From contig NZ_CP047080.1 in assembly GCF_030408595.1 (NCBI RefSeq), positions 2,073,685 through 2,137,684 of the forward strand: a DNA stretch of 64,000 bases, read 5' to 3'. Of this stretch, positions 1,022 to 42,313 are shown piece by piece. Position 1 is the first letter of the stretch; each line of letters starts with the position of its first letter. The notes beneath the pieces are model-generated. The model had not been told where the DNA came from, made no database searches, and saw only the letters and a list, made by a program, of their open reading frames with translations. This stretch comes from Corynebacterium canis. Lineage in GTDB: Bacteria; Actinomycetota; Actinomycetes; Mycobacteriales; Mycobacteriaceae. Made by a program: the position numbers and the translations under genes.

Positions 1022-1028
1022 GACTGAA

Positions 1029-1034
1029 AGTGTA
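1029..1034 (-). promoter_or_regulatory. Candidate -10 element for leaderless hisHA transcript
   Basis: TACACT on the minus strand ends 7 bases before the hisH ATG. This is the spacing expected if transcription starts at the start codon. No convincing -35 hexamer is visible. It would give hisH-hisA a promoter downstream of the repeat that separates them from hisDCB. Confidence 0.35.
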
Positions 1035-1114
1035 GCGTGCGCTTAGGTTGCATACGCCGTCGAGCCCTGGCTAGCGCTAGAGTTTGGCCCGACGGAAAAA
1101 GGTTGCGCACTTCA

Positions 1115-1256
1115 CATGAAATTTTTTACACACGAAATCGGATTTCTGTGTAATTTTCATCGCTCCGGGGCGCTCTGGAGGCCCTGCCGCGATATTTTTT
1201 ACACAGATTTCTGGATTTTGATGTAAAAAATATCGGTAGACACCGTTCAACTCCCG
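1115..1256. repeat. Two-hairpin dispersed repeat, copy 1 (inside the his operon)
   Basis: This is one of three copies in the window of an approximately 140 bp element; the others are at 41408 and 41896. It consists of an imperfect palindrome built on TTTTTTACACA / TGTGTAA, a GC-rich centre, and a second palindrome (ATATTTTTTACA pairing with TGTAAAAAATAT). It ends with the conserved tail CGGTAGACACCGTTCAAC. No reading frame stays open and conserved in all three copies, so it is unlikely to be coding. It lies between the small membrane gene and hisH, so the his mRNA would carry both hairpins. Confidence 0.85.
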
Positions 1257-1433
1257 TTTGGGGAAAGGTTGCGGGCAACGCGATGAGCTGGGATAACGGC
1301 GTTCGGAGCATTTCGGCAATGGTTTTAATAAGGGTAGCGGTTTTCAAGGCCGCAGCGGGGCTCCTGCGGCGGCACAGCAAAATGCGGGCAGGAAAGTATT
1401 GGCCGCAAAGCTATTATGTGCGGTCCGCCCAGC

Positions 1434-1601
1434 CTACCGAGCGCCCAATAACCACAGCAGCGCCGCCGCCCCGGCAAGCGCCGAAAGGATGCCAAGCAGG
1501 AACGTAAACAAACGATGTTCAGCCTGGTAGGCGGACCAAGTTCCGCCCGCCAACAGCCCGGAAATAGCAAACAGCAGGTAGATCAGCCAGGAATATTCCA
1601 C
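1434..1601 (-). CDS. Small membrane protein in the his operon
   Basis: This is a 55-residue protein too short for routine gene calling. Its GTG start directly abuts the hisB stop codon (TAG then GTG), so translation is probably coupled. Two hydrophobic segments are visible, about residues 5-20 (WLIYLLFAISGLLAGG) and 33-53 (FTFLLGILSALAGAAALLWL), separated by a short polar loop, TWSAYQAEHR. A small membrane gene is known between hisB and hisH in the C. glutamicum his operon, and this is its positional equivalent. The function is unknown. Position and composition suggest a membrane accessory role, for example in transport. Confidence 0.75.
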   Translation of the reverse strand: MEYSWLIYLLFAISGLLAGGTWSAYQAEHRLFTFLLGILSALAGAAALLWLLGAR

Positions 1602-12566: not shown

Positions 12567-13820
12567 GTGATCGTCGCTCACGGCGCTACCATTACCGTTT
12601 CCCCAGCTGAGATTTACATCAGCAACTCGCCGTTAGTGGCGGCGTTGCGCGGGCCCGGCTCCCGAGTTCCGCTCGCAAACGTGTCGGGTGTGACGGTGAT
12701 CGCCGCGCCCACGGACACCGATTGCGGGCGTGTGCTTCTCGACGGCGCGAATGTCAGCGTTACCTTTGCGCCCAACCAGCAGCAGCACCAGGAGCACTTC
12801 TTGGCGGCCATTGCTTCCGCACAAAAAGGCGATGCTCCGGCGGTGATACCTGGGTTCGATTTCGTGGCGCTGGATGTGGAAACCGCAAACGACGATTGGG
12901 GGTCCATCTGCCAGGTCGGCGTGGTGCGCGTACAGGACGGCAATGTCATGGAATCGCGCTCTTGGTTGTGCCAACCCCCGGCGAGCGTATCGGAATTTGC
13001 GGAATTCAATATCGGTATCCACGGGATCACCGCCGCCGATGTTGCGGGGCACCCGAGCATCGGCGAAATCATGCCCGCTATCAGCGATTTTATCGGTGAG
13101 CTGCCGGTGCTGGCGCATAACGCGCAATTCGATATGTCGGCATTGGGGCGCGCCTGCGCCGCCAGCGGTGTGCCCACGCCGGAGCTGACGTTCGGCTGCA
13201 CCCTATCGCTGGCCAGGCACAGCAAGGTGAAATTCCCGGCGCACCGGCTGCCGGTGGTGGCGGAGGTGCTGGGCGTGCCGCAGGCCCAGCATCACGACGC
13301 GGAAGATGATGCCCTGACCTGCGCCGGGATCGCCATCGAGCTGGCCAAACGCGCCGGCTACACGGGGGACGTGGTGTCCTACTTTGAGCACGAAGGGTGG
13401 ACGGCGGGCTCGCTGGTGGCGGAGCGCGTGTACCCCATGCTGCGCAAATTTGCGAGCGCGACGCCGGCGCAGCCCCGGAAGCGTACCGCCTGGTCCAAAG
13501 CCGCCACCCCGGAGGTGATTCCGGCGGCCAATACGGAGGCGGATCCGGAGGGCGTGCTGTTCGGGCAAAACGTGACGCTCTCGGGGGATTTCGAACCCTA
13601 TGACAAGGGCATGCTGTGGGAACGTATGGCCGAACTCGGGGCGACTATTGGAAAGAACGTAACCAAGAAAACCACGCTATTGGTGTGCGGGCCGTGGGCC
13701 ACGGTCACCTCCAAACAAAAGCGCGCGGAGCAGCTGATCAAGCAGGGGCAGGCGATCCAGCTGTGGAGCGCCGAACAATTGTATGCCGCGCTGGAATTGG
13801 AGGAGGAACCCCCGTTCTAG
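12567..13820 (+). CDS. DEDDh 3'-5' exonuclease with BRCT domain
   Basis: A 417-residue protein in three parts. An N-terminal beta-rich domain (about 1-85) is unassigned. A DnaQ-like exonuclease (about 95-265) shows the DEDDh residues in FVALDVETAN, AHNAQFDMSALG and HHDAEDDALTCAG. A C-terminal BRCT domain (about 330-412) has LSGDFEPYDKG and MAELGATIGKNVTKKTTLLV, as in the C-terminal domain of DNA ligase. It resembles the actinobacterial epsilon-subunit-like exonucleases. The GTG start at 12567 has AAGGAAAGGA 6 bases upstream; a longer in-frame extension to 12342 lacks support. A role in repair or replication proofreading is likely. Confidence 0.85.
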   Translation: MIVAHGATITVSPAEIYISNSPLVAALRGPGSRVPLANVSGVTVIAAPTDTDCGRVLLDGANVSVTFAPNQQQHQEHFLAAIASAQKGDAPAVIPGFDFVALDVETANDDWGSICQVGVVRVQDGNVMESRSWLCQPPASVSEFAEFNIGIHGITAADVAGHPSIGEIMPAISDFIGELPVLAHNAQFDMSALGRACAASGVPTPELTFGCTLSLARHSKVKFPAHRLPVVAEVLGVPQAQHHDAEDDALTCAGIAIELAKRAGYTGDVVSYFEHEGWTAGSLVAERVYPMLRKFASATPAQPRKRTAWSKAATPEVIPAANTEADPEGVLFGQNVTLSGDFEPYDKGMLWERMAELGATIGKNVTKKTTLLVCGPWATVTSKQKRAEQLIKQGQAIQLWSAEQLYAALELEEEPPF

Positions 13821-13878
13821 GTGGTTTGGGAACCCCGGTGGGCGCTGGCTGCGTCCAAGAAAGAAAAAAGGGGTTCCC

Positions 13879-14430
13879 ATGGACATTGGACAAGATTTCT
13901 CGTTGCAGGTGCGGCGGGCGCAAGGCTCGCCCCTGGTTGATGACCTCACCTTTGCGCACTGCCCCGTCTCCATCGCACTCTCGGACGAATTGCGTGCGGT
14001 GTTTGTGCGGCGGGGCAAGCTGGTCACCCACGCCGAGCTGGATGCCCTCGGGGTAGGCAGCACATCAATGTGGGACCTTACGGCGGAACGGACCACCAGC
14101 GCGCGCGTGCGCATCCGAAGCCATGTCCGGGGCGGGATCGAGGTGGCTGCGGATCCCGGCTCGGCCGTGGATTGGTTGGCGCACCCGCATTCGTTTTGGC
14201 TGCTGCACACGCACCTCCAGCAATTTTTTGGGGGCACGATCCTGTATTTCGCGCCCACGACCACGCTGCTGGTGGCCGCGCCCTGGGCCGCCGGTTATTT
14301 GCCGGAATTGCAGCTGTGGGCGGCGGAAACATACGCGGCGGCGGGTGCGCGTGGGCTGGTTCCGCACGGCGTGATATATCACCAGGGTTACCCCACGTCA
14401 GTGTCTCAGCAATTCGCTCATGCTCGCTAA
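13879..14430 (+). CDS. Hypothetical protein upstream of alarmone synthetase
   Basis: A 183-residue soluble protein, not recognised. The ATG at 13879 follows an AGGGG site. The protein is rich in Trp and His (PHSFWLLHTHLQQFFGG near residue 105) and has no signal peptide or clear membrane segment. It follows the exonuclease gene by about 58 bases, and its 3' end lies 10 bases before the next gene's preferred start, suggesting an operon with the alarmone synthetase. No function is proposed. Confidence 0.7.
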   Translation: MDIGQDFSLQVRRAQGSPLVDDLTFAHCPVSIALSDELRAVFVRRGKLVTHAELDALGVGSTSMWDLTAERTTSARVRIRSHVRGGIEVAADPGSAVDWLAHPHSFWLLHTHLQQFFGGTILYFAPTTTLLVAAPWAAGYLPELQLWAAETYAAAGARGLVPHGVIYHQGYPTSVSQQFAHAR

Positions 14431-29318: not shown

Positions 29319-29809
29319 AACTCCCTCACGCCTGCGGACAGGTTGTGCGCAACCGCCCAGGTCAGCGTGGCCTTCCCGCACATAATGGTTCGAAGTTTCT
29401 CGAACCATTGGCCCCACCAAATCTGCCTCAGGCACATCTGACAGGGCAAGTTCAGCCTCCTGCGGAAACGCAACCGCTCGATGGCCGGCATGTCGAATCT
29501 GCCTGAGCGCGGATCTGATCGTCCGGCGCGTCCGATCTGCCTGAGCGCGGAACTCGGCGGCTGATGATTACACGCCGTGTGTGGGCGATACGGTCGCGTC
29601 CGTCTGTGCGTGACACCGAGTCCGGTACAGGCATCTCGCCACAGATTCGAGCGCTATGCACCACCGTTATCCGACAGCACACGTTCGACGATGATGCCGC
29701 GGGCGGCGTTGGCATGGCTCACGATATCCTCCCGGGATAGCAGCGAAGAAAAGCGGCCAGCCTAGGCAAGCTCGTCCCTATGGATAAATTGTCTAAATGG
29801 TCGGTTAGG
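29319..29809. other. Non-coding left flank of accessory segment, with ATCTGCCT motifs
   Basis: About 490 bases without a supportable gene. They contain three ATCTGCCT half-sites (29421, 29497, 29535), the first followed by a nearly complete mirror arm. The second and third lie in an 18 bp direct repeat (ATCTGCCTGAGCGCGGA). No terminator is evident after rarD beyond a weak GGTTG / CAACC stem near 29340. Confidence 0.6.
29421..29552. repeat. ATCTGCCT motif cluster, left
   Basis: The motif occurs at 29421-29428, 29497-29504 and 29535-29542. The first extends to ATCTGCCT-C-AGGCACAT, one mismatch from a perfect 17 bp palindrome. The other two are each followed by GAGCGCGGA. The same motif clusters again at 32943-33086 on the other side of the accessory genes. 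Confidence 0.75.
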
Positions 29810-32757: not shown

Positions 32758-33287
32758 GCGATCGTTCGCTGCACCCCAACAATCTTGGCATGCCCACCAC
32801 ACCCCACAACCGGTACGGTGACGCCCGAAACCCGGCGCACCCCGGCCGTTTTTGTGCTCCGTGCCTGCCCCGCCACTGCCGTCTGCCCGCAGCACCCCGT
32901 AGCTGTCCGTAGCTGAAGCGCCCCTTTCCCCGGCCACGTTAAATCTGCCTGTTCGCGCTCCTGCTATGTCACATTTGCCTGGTTGCGCGGGATCTGCCTG
33001 ATTTTTGGGCCGAGTTTTCCTGGGGAAATGCGGCCGCGACGAATCTGCCTCAGGCAGATCGGTCAGGGCAGGTGAGGCAGGCAGATTCTGCGCGTGAGAA
33101 TGAGGGCGGACAGTGCGGGGTCCTGTGGAAATGCTGCCAGCTCAGCCTCGATAGATTACGTGCGACCTATCCCGAGTTGCTCGCGCCCCCGCCAAAACAA
33201 CCGCCCCACCGCGGACAACCGCCCCGCCAACACGCCCCGCAAAACATCCTGCCCAAAACAACCGCCCCCACCAAGAAACTCGCGCCG
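32681..33287. other. Non-coding right flank of accessory segment
   Basis: About 600 bases with no supportable gene. They hold the 14-bp tandem repeat, the right ATCTGCCT cluster, and C/A-rich sequence (33180-33290) running up to the stop of the convergent gene at 33288. Confidence 0.6.
32943..33086. repeat. ATCTGCCT motif cluster with perfect 17 bp palindrome, right
   Basis: Half-sites occur at 32943, 32973 (ATTTGCCT), 32992 and 33043, and inverted at 33052 and 33079. The central pair ATCTGCCT-C-AGGCAGAT (33043-33059) is a perfect 17 bp palindrome with one central base. The same motif is found at 29421-29542, 3.5 kb away, on the other side of the hydrolase, regulator and nuclease-like genes. 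Confidence 0.8.
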
Positions 33288-41384: not shown

Positions 41385-41722
41385 GCAGGAATTGGTTGTG
41401 TGCTGCGCATGAAGTTTTTTACACACGAAAGCCGGATTCTGTGTAATTTTCATCATCTGGGGCCCGCTGGGGCCGCCACCGCGATATGTTTTACACAGAT
41501 TTCGGGATTTTGATGTAAAAAATATCGGTAGACACCGTTCAACTCTCGCCATCGCAATAGATTGTCCACGACTAATCTGGTCACCTTTTCGTCACAGTGA
41601 CGTAATTCGACCATGCTCCATATTGGGCGGTTGAATTGAGGCCCGCAGCGACGTTATTATACTTGGGCACAAAATGGTGGCAAGCTACGTTTCCAAGAAT
41701 GCAATTTGGCTTCGACTCCGGC
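41385..41722. repeat. Large direct repeat, copy A
   Basis: The unit begins GCAGGAATTGGTTGTGTG and contains the two-hairpin element (41408-41548), an 11 bp palindrome GTCACAGTGAC (41591-41601) and about 120 bp more. The same unit recurs 488 bp downstream, with aligned landmarks at constant offset until the last 30 bases, which drift by one or two bases. Confidence 0.8.
41408..41548. repeat. Two-hairpin dispersed repeat, copy 2
   Basis: The same structure as at 1115-1256: a TTTTTTACACACG / TGTGTAA palindrome, GC-rich centre, ATATGTTTTACAC to GTAAAAAATAT palindrome, then CGGTAGACACCGTTCAAC. One change (ATATGTTTT for ATATTTTTT) is seen against copies 1 and 3. Confidence 0.85.
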
Positions 41723-41872: not shown

Positions 41873-42212
41873 GCAGGAATGGGTTGTGTGCTGCGCATGA
41901 AGTTTTTTACACACGAATCGGCGATTCTGTGTAATTTTCATCATCCGGGGCTCGCTGGGGCCGCCAGCGCGATATTTTTTACACAGATTTTTGGATTTTG
42001 GTGTAAAAAATATCGGTAGACACCGTTCAACTCCCGGTCCGGCAATGGGTTGCACGCAACCAACCGTGCCTCCTTTTCGTCACAGTGACGTAATTCGGCC
42101 ATGCCCTCATATAGGGCGGTTGATTTGAAGCCCACAGCAGGCAATTAACTATGGGGCGCAAAATAGTAGCAAGCTACATTTCCCAAGGTGCGATCCGGCT
42201 CGACCCCGCAAA
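41873..42212. repeat. Large direct repeat, copy B
   Basis: The second copy of the unit at 41385. It begins GCAGGAATGGGTTGTGTG, contains the third two-hairpin element and GTCACAGTGAC at 42079-42089. Many scattered substitutions separate it from copy A, so the duplication is not recent. Confidence 0.8.
41896..42036. repeat. Two-hairpin dispersed repeat, copy 3
   Basis: The third copy. The second palindrome is the best preserved here (ATATTTTTTACAC to GTGTAAAAAATAT). The conserved tail CGGTAGACACCGTTCAAC is followed by CCCG and a TTGCACGCAA inverted repeat. Confidence 0.85.
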
Positions 42213-42300
42213 CCTGCCCCGCAAACCCATCCAGCTCGACCCCGCAAACCCGCCGCGCAAACCCATCCGGCTCGACCCCGCAAACCCGCCCCACTAACCC
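42193..42300. repeat. 36-bp tandem repeat, three copies
   Basis: Three head-to-tail 36-bp units begin ATCCGGCTCGACCCCGCAAA (second: ATCCAGCTCG) and end near AAACCC (third: TAACCC). The period is a multiple of three, and the frame 42188-42300 reads repeated SSTPQT-like residues, but there is no ribosome-binding site or sensible protein around it. It is not a CRISPR array, since there are no spacers. Confidence 0.85.
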
Positions 42301-42313
42301 ATCCCCGCCCAGA

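Follow-up and report, generated by a model that had tools for sequence, protein, structure and literature searches.

MITEs (Correia, ERIC and similar elements) are short, non-coding, dispersed, intergenic sequences with related end motifs, and the REP/BIME sequences of E. coli are reportedly bound by IHF, among other proteins. In the accessible part of one report, REP, PU and BIME repeats are described as extragenic palindromic sequences of high copy number, often located between converging genes and used as targets by insertion sequences (IS), and REP-targeting IS3 elements of the IS1397 / ISKpn1 type are known (PMC1525189). For C. diphtheriae, the available portion of a survey counted 9 stem-loop clusters (PMC2267715); no description of a 140-base repeat was found in the portions of the literature covered.

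Here, we analyzed a repeat of a Corynebacterium genome (G000, one contig of 3,045,310 bases) noticed by a first-pass annotation of a stretch of 64,000 nucleotides, referred to as the window (positions 2073685-2137684). Like REP/BIME sequences as that partial source presents them, it is palindromic and extragenic (94 copies), often lies between converging genes and is targeted by an IS; like MITEs, it is short, non-coding, dispersed, intergenic and bounded by related end motifs. It differs from REP/BIME sequences in three respects: the core is ~137 bp long with two large palindromes, the dimers are direct in 38 of 38 pairs whereas REP composite units alternate, and the Y1/RAYT transposase is absent from G000. 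It differs from MITEs in that a parent transposon was not found beside the elements (15 ORFs), visual inspection of the few copies read at both ends revealed no target-site duplication, a conserved core is followed by a less conserved tail, and the palindromes vary between families with similar flanks. We regard the repeat as a REP/MITE-like element of a genome that lacks RAYT; its further families hold the DNA geometry while the palindrome sequence changes. Our preferred reading, to which we give a probability of about 0.6, is that the repeat, present in a few Corynebacterium species, is a non-autonomous mobile cassette whose helically phased palindromes would be presented to a DNA-binding protein.

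Copies of the repeat in the genome

The first-pass annotation had listed three copies, at window positions 1115, 41408 and 41896. All three are present, each with its two palindromes and the tail of 18 bases, and the number was an undercount, at least 94 copies being present genome-wide. A search of G000 with the conserved end ATATCGGTAGACACCGTTCAAC, allowing up to 3 mismatches, gave 94 places (63 exact, 26 with one mismatch and 5 with two) and 0 in the reversed control; a single recent local duplication producing the three copies is not upheld by this result. No relative was seen to code for a protein there. In the alignment inspected by eye, nucleotide blocks are conserved with indels between copies, so that no reading frame is kept, in agreement with the original description.

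The 94 copies form 56 sites (18 single and 38 double). Partners of a double site are separated by a median of 500 bp (range 327-896 bp), with two exceptions of ~2.2 kb that each contain an insertion sequence. Altogether, the cores cover 0.42% of G000. No match was obtained when copies were searched in plasmids, phages and viral contigs, nor in an exact-pattern search of a genome contig collection. The position of the copies relative to the origin is unbiased (KS p 0.14), and a depletion near the origin, considered at one stage, was dropped on this value.

Some copies and neighboring repeats depart from this pattern. The copy at 461439 has a center seemingly inverted between TTTTTTACAC arms, with an IS adjoining, and a divergent cassette resembling this family, with a second palindrome of the TTACATCAAAA type, is found at 1429790. 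In the window, three tandem repeats, 36 bp apart, directly follow the cassette pair (42193-42304).

Anatomy of the core and its tails

A bounding motif RATAGGTTGYGYRC comes first from the left, then palindrome 1, which a GC-rich spacer (~30 bp) separates from palindrome 2, and lastly the constant tail (Table 1); the left arms of both palindromes have the sequence TTTTTTACACA. Mean column identity is 86% among the 82 complete cores of alignment A1, from which 11 of the 94 copies lacking a complete left part and the inverted-center copy 461439 were excluded. End motifs, of the ATAGGTTGCGCAC type on the left and of the GTGCGCAAYC type on the right, were read by eye in about ten copies, without statistical test.

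Table 1. Positions of the cassettes in the window and of the family-2 places in G000
Feature	Position	Strand	Remark
Left bounding motif GGTTGCGCAC, single copy	1101..1110	+	conserved left of core in 83 copies
Core, his-operon copy (row of alignment A1)	1115..1251	+	
Palindrome 1 (TTTTTTACACA ... TGTGTAATTTTCAT)	1122..1160	+	
GC-rich spacer between palindromes	1161..1190	+	folds no better than shuffles, 82 copies
Palindrome 2 (GATATTTTTTACACAG ... TGTAAAAAATATC)	1191..1234	+	
Constant tail CGGTAGACACCGTTCAAC	1234..1251	+	exact in 63/94 copies
Class A tail, faster evolving	1252..1374	+	right limit approximate
Left bounding motif GGTTGTGTGC, first copy of pair	41394..41403	+	
Core, first copy of direct pair	41408..41543	+	
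Class B tail and spacer start, first copy	41544..41720	+	right limit approximate
Left bounding motif GGTTGTGTGC, second copy of pair	41882..41891	+	
Core, second copy of pair	41896..42031	+	488 bp after first
Class B tail, second copy	42032..42180	+	right limit approximate
Family-2 places (G000 coordinates)	1108911, 1109326, 581529, 682070, 1146208, 1553442, 2650715		

Downstream of the core, 51 copies carry a class A tail, 22 a class B tail and 21 another sequence. These tails belong to the cores: 38 of the 40 matches to a class A query and 22 of the 25 matches to a class B query lie beside cores, and the matches found elsewhere (2 class A, 3 class B) are only 20-47 bp long. When the tails are counted in, the spacers of 36 of the 38 pairs can be assigned to two homology groups, with 22 and 14 members, and the deep part of the spacer (beyond 190 nt) matches another site in 16 of the 33 tested. 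These deep matches indicate that the two-core dimer is a repeated unit, copied as such. Partner cores are 90.7% identical (30 pairs) compared to 85.6% for non-partners, and the best match of a core is its partner in just 28 of 60 copies; direct tandem dimers may be kept alike by local duplication or conversion. At six related sites, identity counted over all alignment columns was 88.6% for the core, 75.6% for the tail and 46.2% for the shuffled tail. Identities over aligned columns alone were abandoned, as unrelated spacers then scored 0.80 and shuffled tails 0.78. Separately, a repeat of 194-330 bp (87-90% identity) is found in the spacers at 796736 and 2520392 and in the flank downstream of 1856796.

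Gene context and the his operon

Among the 58 gaps that contain an element in the fetched loci (58 rather than 56, two sites being split by insertion-sequence ORFs), 34 separate converging genes, 21 codirectional genes and 3 diverging genes. The 274 element-free gaps of the same loci comprise 34 converging, 189 codirectional and 51 diverging ones. The excess of converging gaps (34/58 versus 34/274; Fisher p 6e-13) persists against element-free gaps of at least 100 bp (10/112 converging; Fisher p 7e-12), the effect sizes being approximate because only loci around elements were sampled and the simple codon-usage gene finder misses real genes. With the same crude gene finder, no core lies inside a called gene, and overlaps with gene ends reach 86 bp. 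Cassettes of this main family would insert, or would survive, chiefly where the 3' ends of two genes converge.

The copy at 1115 is an exception to this bias, its flanking genes lying on one strand. It is located, as first described, within the his genes; hisH lies on one side of it and a small ORF adjoining hisB on the other, and it is on the opposite strand from these genes. In the closest relative, an MFS_1 gene separates hisB from hisH; this gene is missing from the window (1022-1601), and the cassette stands in its place. The hisB-hisH gap is 581 bp here and at least 1.3 kb in 22 of the 24 Corynebacterium loci (among 73 measured).

An IS3-type element targets the cassettes

An IS of 1,709 bp (three copies measured), whose ORFs belong to HTH_Tnp_1 and rve, is present in 11 copies in G000 with identical 115-nt right ends. 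Seven of them are inserted inside a cassette palindrome, one abuts a cassette and three lie elsewhere. Given the fraction of the genome covered by cores, such a distribution has a binomial p of 8e-15, and the cassettes are a preferred target of this IS. The likeness to the IS1397 / ISKpn1 type, as far as the consulted part of the report on REP targets describes it, is that of an IS3 element sitting in repeat palindromes; the difference is that the target repeat here is not REP. The IS is here a guest of the cassette.

Further families in relatives

A DNA query gave no match in 200 other genomes of the genus (4 candidates scored per genome), and covariance model R1, run with 241 other genus genomes, matched only G000 (13 candidates scored). 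A later model, R2, found other genomes, and these negatives therefore reflect a limit of sensitivity. A more permissive R1 search, covering the genomes from which seven HisB loci came, gave 14 matches (E up to 1) in one of them, G242, a metagenome-assembled genome of Corynebacterium sp. with the highest HisB identity (86%), and none in the six others. One G242 core, used as a query on its own genome, gave 142 matches, many of which were incomplete or came from the other strand of a palindrome. Among the matches listed, 30 loci each cover at least 117 of the 156 query positions; they correspond to ~26 distinct sites and include four direct pairs 461-473 bp apart. Alignments A2 and A3 contain 22 of the 30 loci, partial and duplicate ones being excluded, and R2 was built from G242 loci.

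R2 matched 4 of 242 genus genomes (G115, G199, G023 and G000). G115 has the same contig coordinates as G242 and is the same genome. The 13 matches in G199 fall at 10 places, with E values from 1e-26 to 5e-14, and G023 has one possible copy (E 3e-5). In G000, seven additional places of 84 bp were found (E values between 5e-4 and 0.04), including a pair separated by 415 bp. The latter constitute family 2, the repeat of the window being family 1; six copies were compared and the seventh, 1553442, was left out. The palindromes of family 2 (GAAGAAATTC type) are unrelated to those of G242 (TTCCAT type). Despite these differing palindromes, GATCGCAGGTCA and GTTGTGCGCAAC-type motifs are common to both, and a right flank consisting of GATCGCAGGTCA then RCGG[TC]TG..GCAAC (with variants) is common to G242 and the six family-2 copies. 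Family 1 resembles the others in its layout of two palindromes, its direct pairs, its bounding motif and the ..TCAAC with which it ends. From this layout, the boundary motif and weak covariance scores, and not from palindrome sequence, we infer, with less certainty, that family 1 is homologous to the other families and descends from a common ancestor with them.

The context of these families was also recorded. Among the G242 loci, 19 of 30 have no called gene on at least one side and the remaining 11 comprise 8 converging and 3 codirectional loci (6 and 3 when callable distinct sites are counted); the four G199 loci yielded no genes. The bias is absent in family 2 (1 of 6 copies between converging genes). 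Some family-2 copies are flanked by tandem repeats of the GGTTGTGCGCAACC-CATCGGCGACCTAGGC type. Other repeated palindromic modules, of the TCTGCCTCAGGCAGA type, are located at 29341-29560 and 32930-33080 of the window, with a GGTTGTGCGCAACC motif at 29341, and modules of this kind are also seen near family-2 cassettes.

Palindrome spacing is kept to the helical turn

The distance between palindrome centers is 72.0 bp in 62 of the 76 measurable family-1 cores and 71-73.5 bp in the others (18 of the 94 copies were not measurable). It is also 72.0 bp in 5 of 5 family-2 copies, the sixth having one palindrome. In G242, 15 of 31 intervals are 82 bp and 12 are 61 bp; in G199, 8 of 20 are 82 bp and 8 are 61-62 bp; the G023 copy has 61.5 bp. 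At 10.5 bp per turn, spacings of 61-62, 72 and 82 bp correspond to 5.8-5.9, 6.9 and 7.8 turns, in steps of about one turn. Phased spacing of this kind is expected where proteins occupy a single face of the DNA duplex; it is not expected of RNA hairpins. Spacing kept to the turn thus argues for double-stranded DNA and protein binding rather than RNA, and is the strongest argument for the cassette being, as the first-pass annotation had envisaged among other possibilities, a protein-binding repeat, which it probably is.

As the half-sites are common to both palindromes of one core and lie on one helical phase, a DNA-binding protein probably binds them as cooperating dimers. A tentative extension, which we hold to be possible but somewhat doubtful, is that the cassette is modular: the common flanking motifs would carry interchangeable palindrome pairs, each type being read by its own cognate protein, with the recognition sequence replaced and the geometry held. 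The half-sites of the two G000 families are unrelated although both have the 72.0-bp spacing, and in families of other species the spacing is a turn shorter (61 bp) or longer (82 bp).

Mobility of the cassette

Flanks of 1.5 kb (~63-86% identity) were compared between the two genomes. Six of the 30 G242 loci have flanks matching DNA fetched around G000 elements; one was assigned to the same gap by both flanks (C139:7425 and 602459/603051) and two more by one flank, although some common sites may be missed by such a search. In G000, the stop codon of imuB (509297-510766, IMS family) overlaps that of its converging neighbor and the junction is closed. In G242, palindrome arrays come after the same two gene ends (that of the neighbor read by eye), at contig ends or close to them. 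This junction would thus be closed in G000 and filled in G242 if the two contigs of this fragmented assembly adjoin. Combined, the dispersed copies and this junction agree with the earlier proposal of a non-autonomous mobile element, and the cassette is probably mobile.

A search for the Y1 (RAYT) transposase family PF01797 gave 0 matches in G000 and was positive in 5 of 14 control genomes, and a RAYT-mobilized REP was rejected. The 15 ORFs beside elements showed no transposase family (ordinary families, weak HTH below cut-off, or no family), and a mobility gene beside the elements was dropped as a candidate. Each cassette comprises the bounding motif (GGTTGYGCRC / GTTGTGCGCAAC type), palindrome 1, the center, palindrome 2, a short conserved stretch with ..TCARC at its end and the bounding motif again. 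In the proposed mechanism, a protein recognizing the palindrome pair, possibly a transposase, a recombinase or an accessory factor, would most likely move or maintain the cassette in trans.

Alternative roles of the repeat

Three other roles were weighed against a mobile cassette. Firstly, the cassettes may be architectural sites beneficial to the host and kept by selection. Their palindromes would bind a protein of the nucleoid or of DNA topology and act between converging genes, where they might for instance take up supercoils. The bias to converging gaps, the higher conservation of the core than of the tail at the same sites and the fixed helical phase are in keeping with such a role. However, tolerance alone also predicts the converging bias, which family 2 does not have. 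Moreover, at most 3 of ~26 G242 sites match a G000 site, six other relatives have no R1 match and R2 matches only 4 of 242 genus genomes; with so few relatives and sites carrying the cassette, an architectural function would be recent or dispensable. We consider this role unlikely.

Secondly, the repeat could act in RNA as a 3'-UTR hairpin that terminates, stabilizes or marks transcripts for processing; the first-pass annotation had likewise suggested an RNA-processing site. The cores are located at 3' ends of genes and fold better than shuffles: the window copy reaches -51.3 kcal/mol versus a shuffle mean of -27.3 (z -7.45), z is -7.5 and -5.4 on its two strands, and the means over 82 copies are -5.7 and -4.7. 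The column pair with the highest covariation (22-41, palindrome 1) is A-T in 62 rows and C-G in 7, the one compensating pair, and in the third window copy the GC center fits the terminator pattern (41953-41969). The palindromes fold better than dinucleotide shuffles (mean z -2.0 and -4.2 for palindromes 1 and 2, + strand, 82 copies). Against this role, the GC center folds no better than shuffles (mean z -0.1, 82 copies); both strands fold alike; terminator scans gave 1 versus 1.2 expected and 3 versus 1.4; and helical-turn spacing suits DNA. An intrinsic terminator was rejected on the folding of the center and on the pattern being met by 1 of 3 window copies only. A known structured RNA was rejected on the window having 0 Rfam matches at gathering level, two sub-threshold ones occurring in one of the 3 loci. 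The RNA-processing proposal was therefore not retained, and a role in RNA appears improbable.

Thirdly, a DnaA-box element, in which two TTTTACACA boxes per core would titrate DnaA or tie mobility to replication, is very improbable: TTWTNCACA occurs 364 times in G000 (reversed control 119), 159 of its 190 occurrences in the fetched DNA are in cores, 65 of 94 cores have two boxes and the right box scores like the oriC boxes of G000, but the TTTTACAC sites are 70-75 bp apart in the 79 cores having two, whereas the separation preferred by E. coli DnaA is 2-3 bp in the accessible part of the source (PMC11317965), and boxes are absent from 22/22 G242 cores, 6/6 family-2 copies and 10/10 G199 arrays, the copies being also unbiased relative to the origin. 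Titration of DnaA was rejected on the distance between boxes and their absence from the other families. Independently of the cassettes, six TTATCCACA boxes are present within 850 bp at 13370-14212 of G000, ~12 kb from oriC, and may form a DnaA-box cluster.

Implications

Among systems that read and move intergenic palindromic repeats, the best understood are the REP/RAYT ones, and the mobile cassette proposed here has reached a high copy number in a genome that lacks RAYT. It shows how such repeats may keep their geometry while replacing the recognition sequence; if the modular reading is true, recognition sequence would evolve by replacement with the DNA geometry held. As several families are present in several species and a junction differs between relatives, a direct search for the reading protein is feasible.
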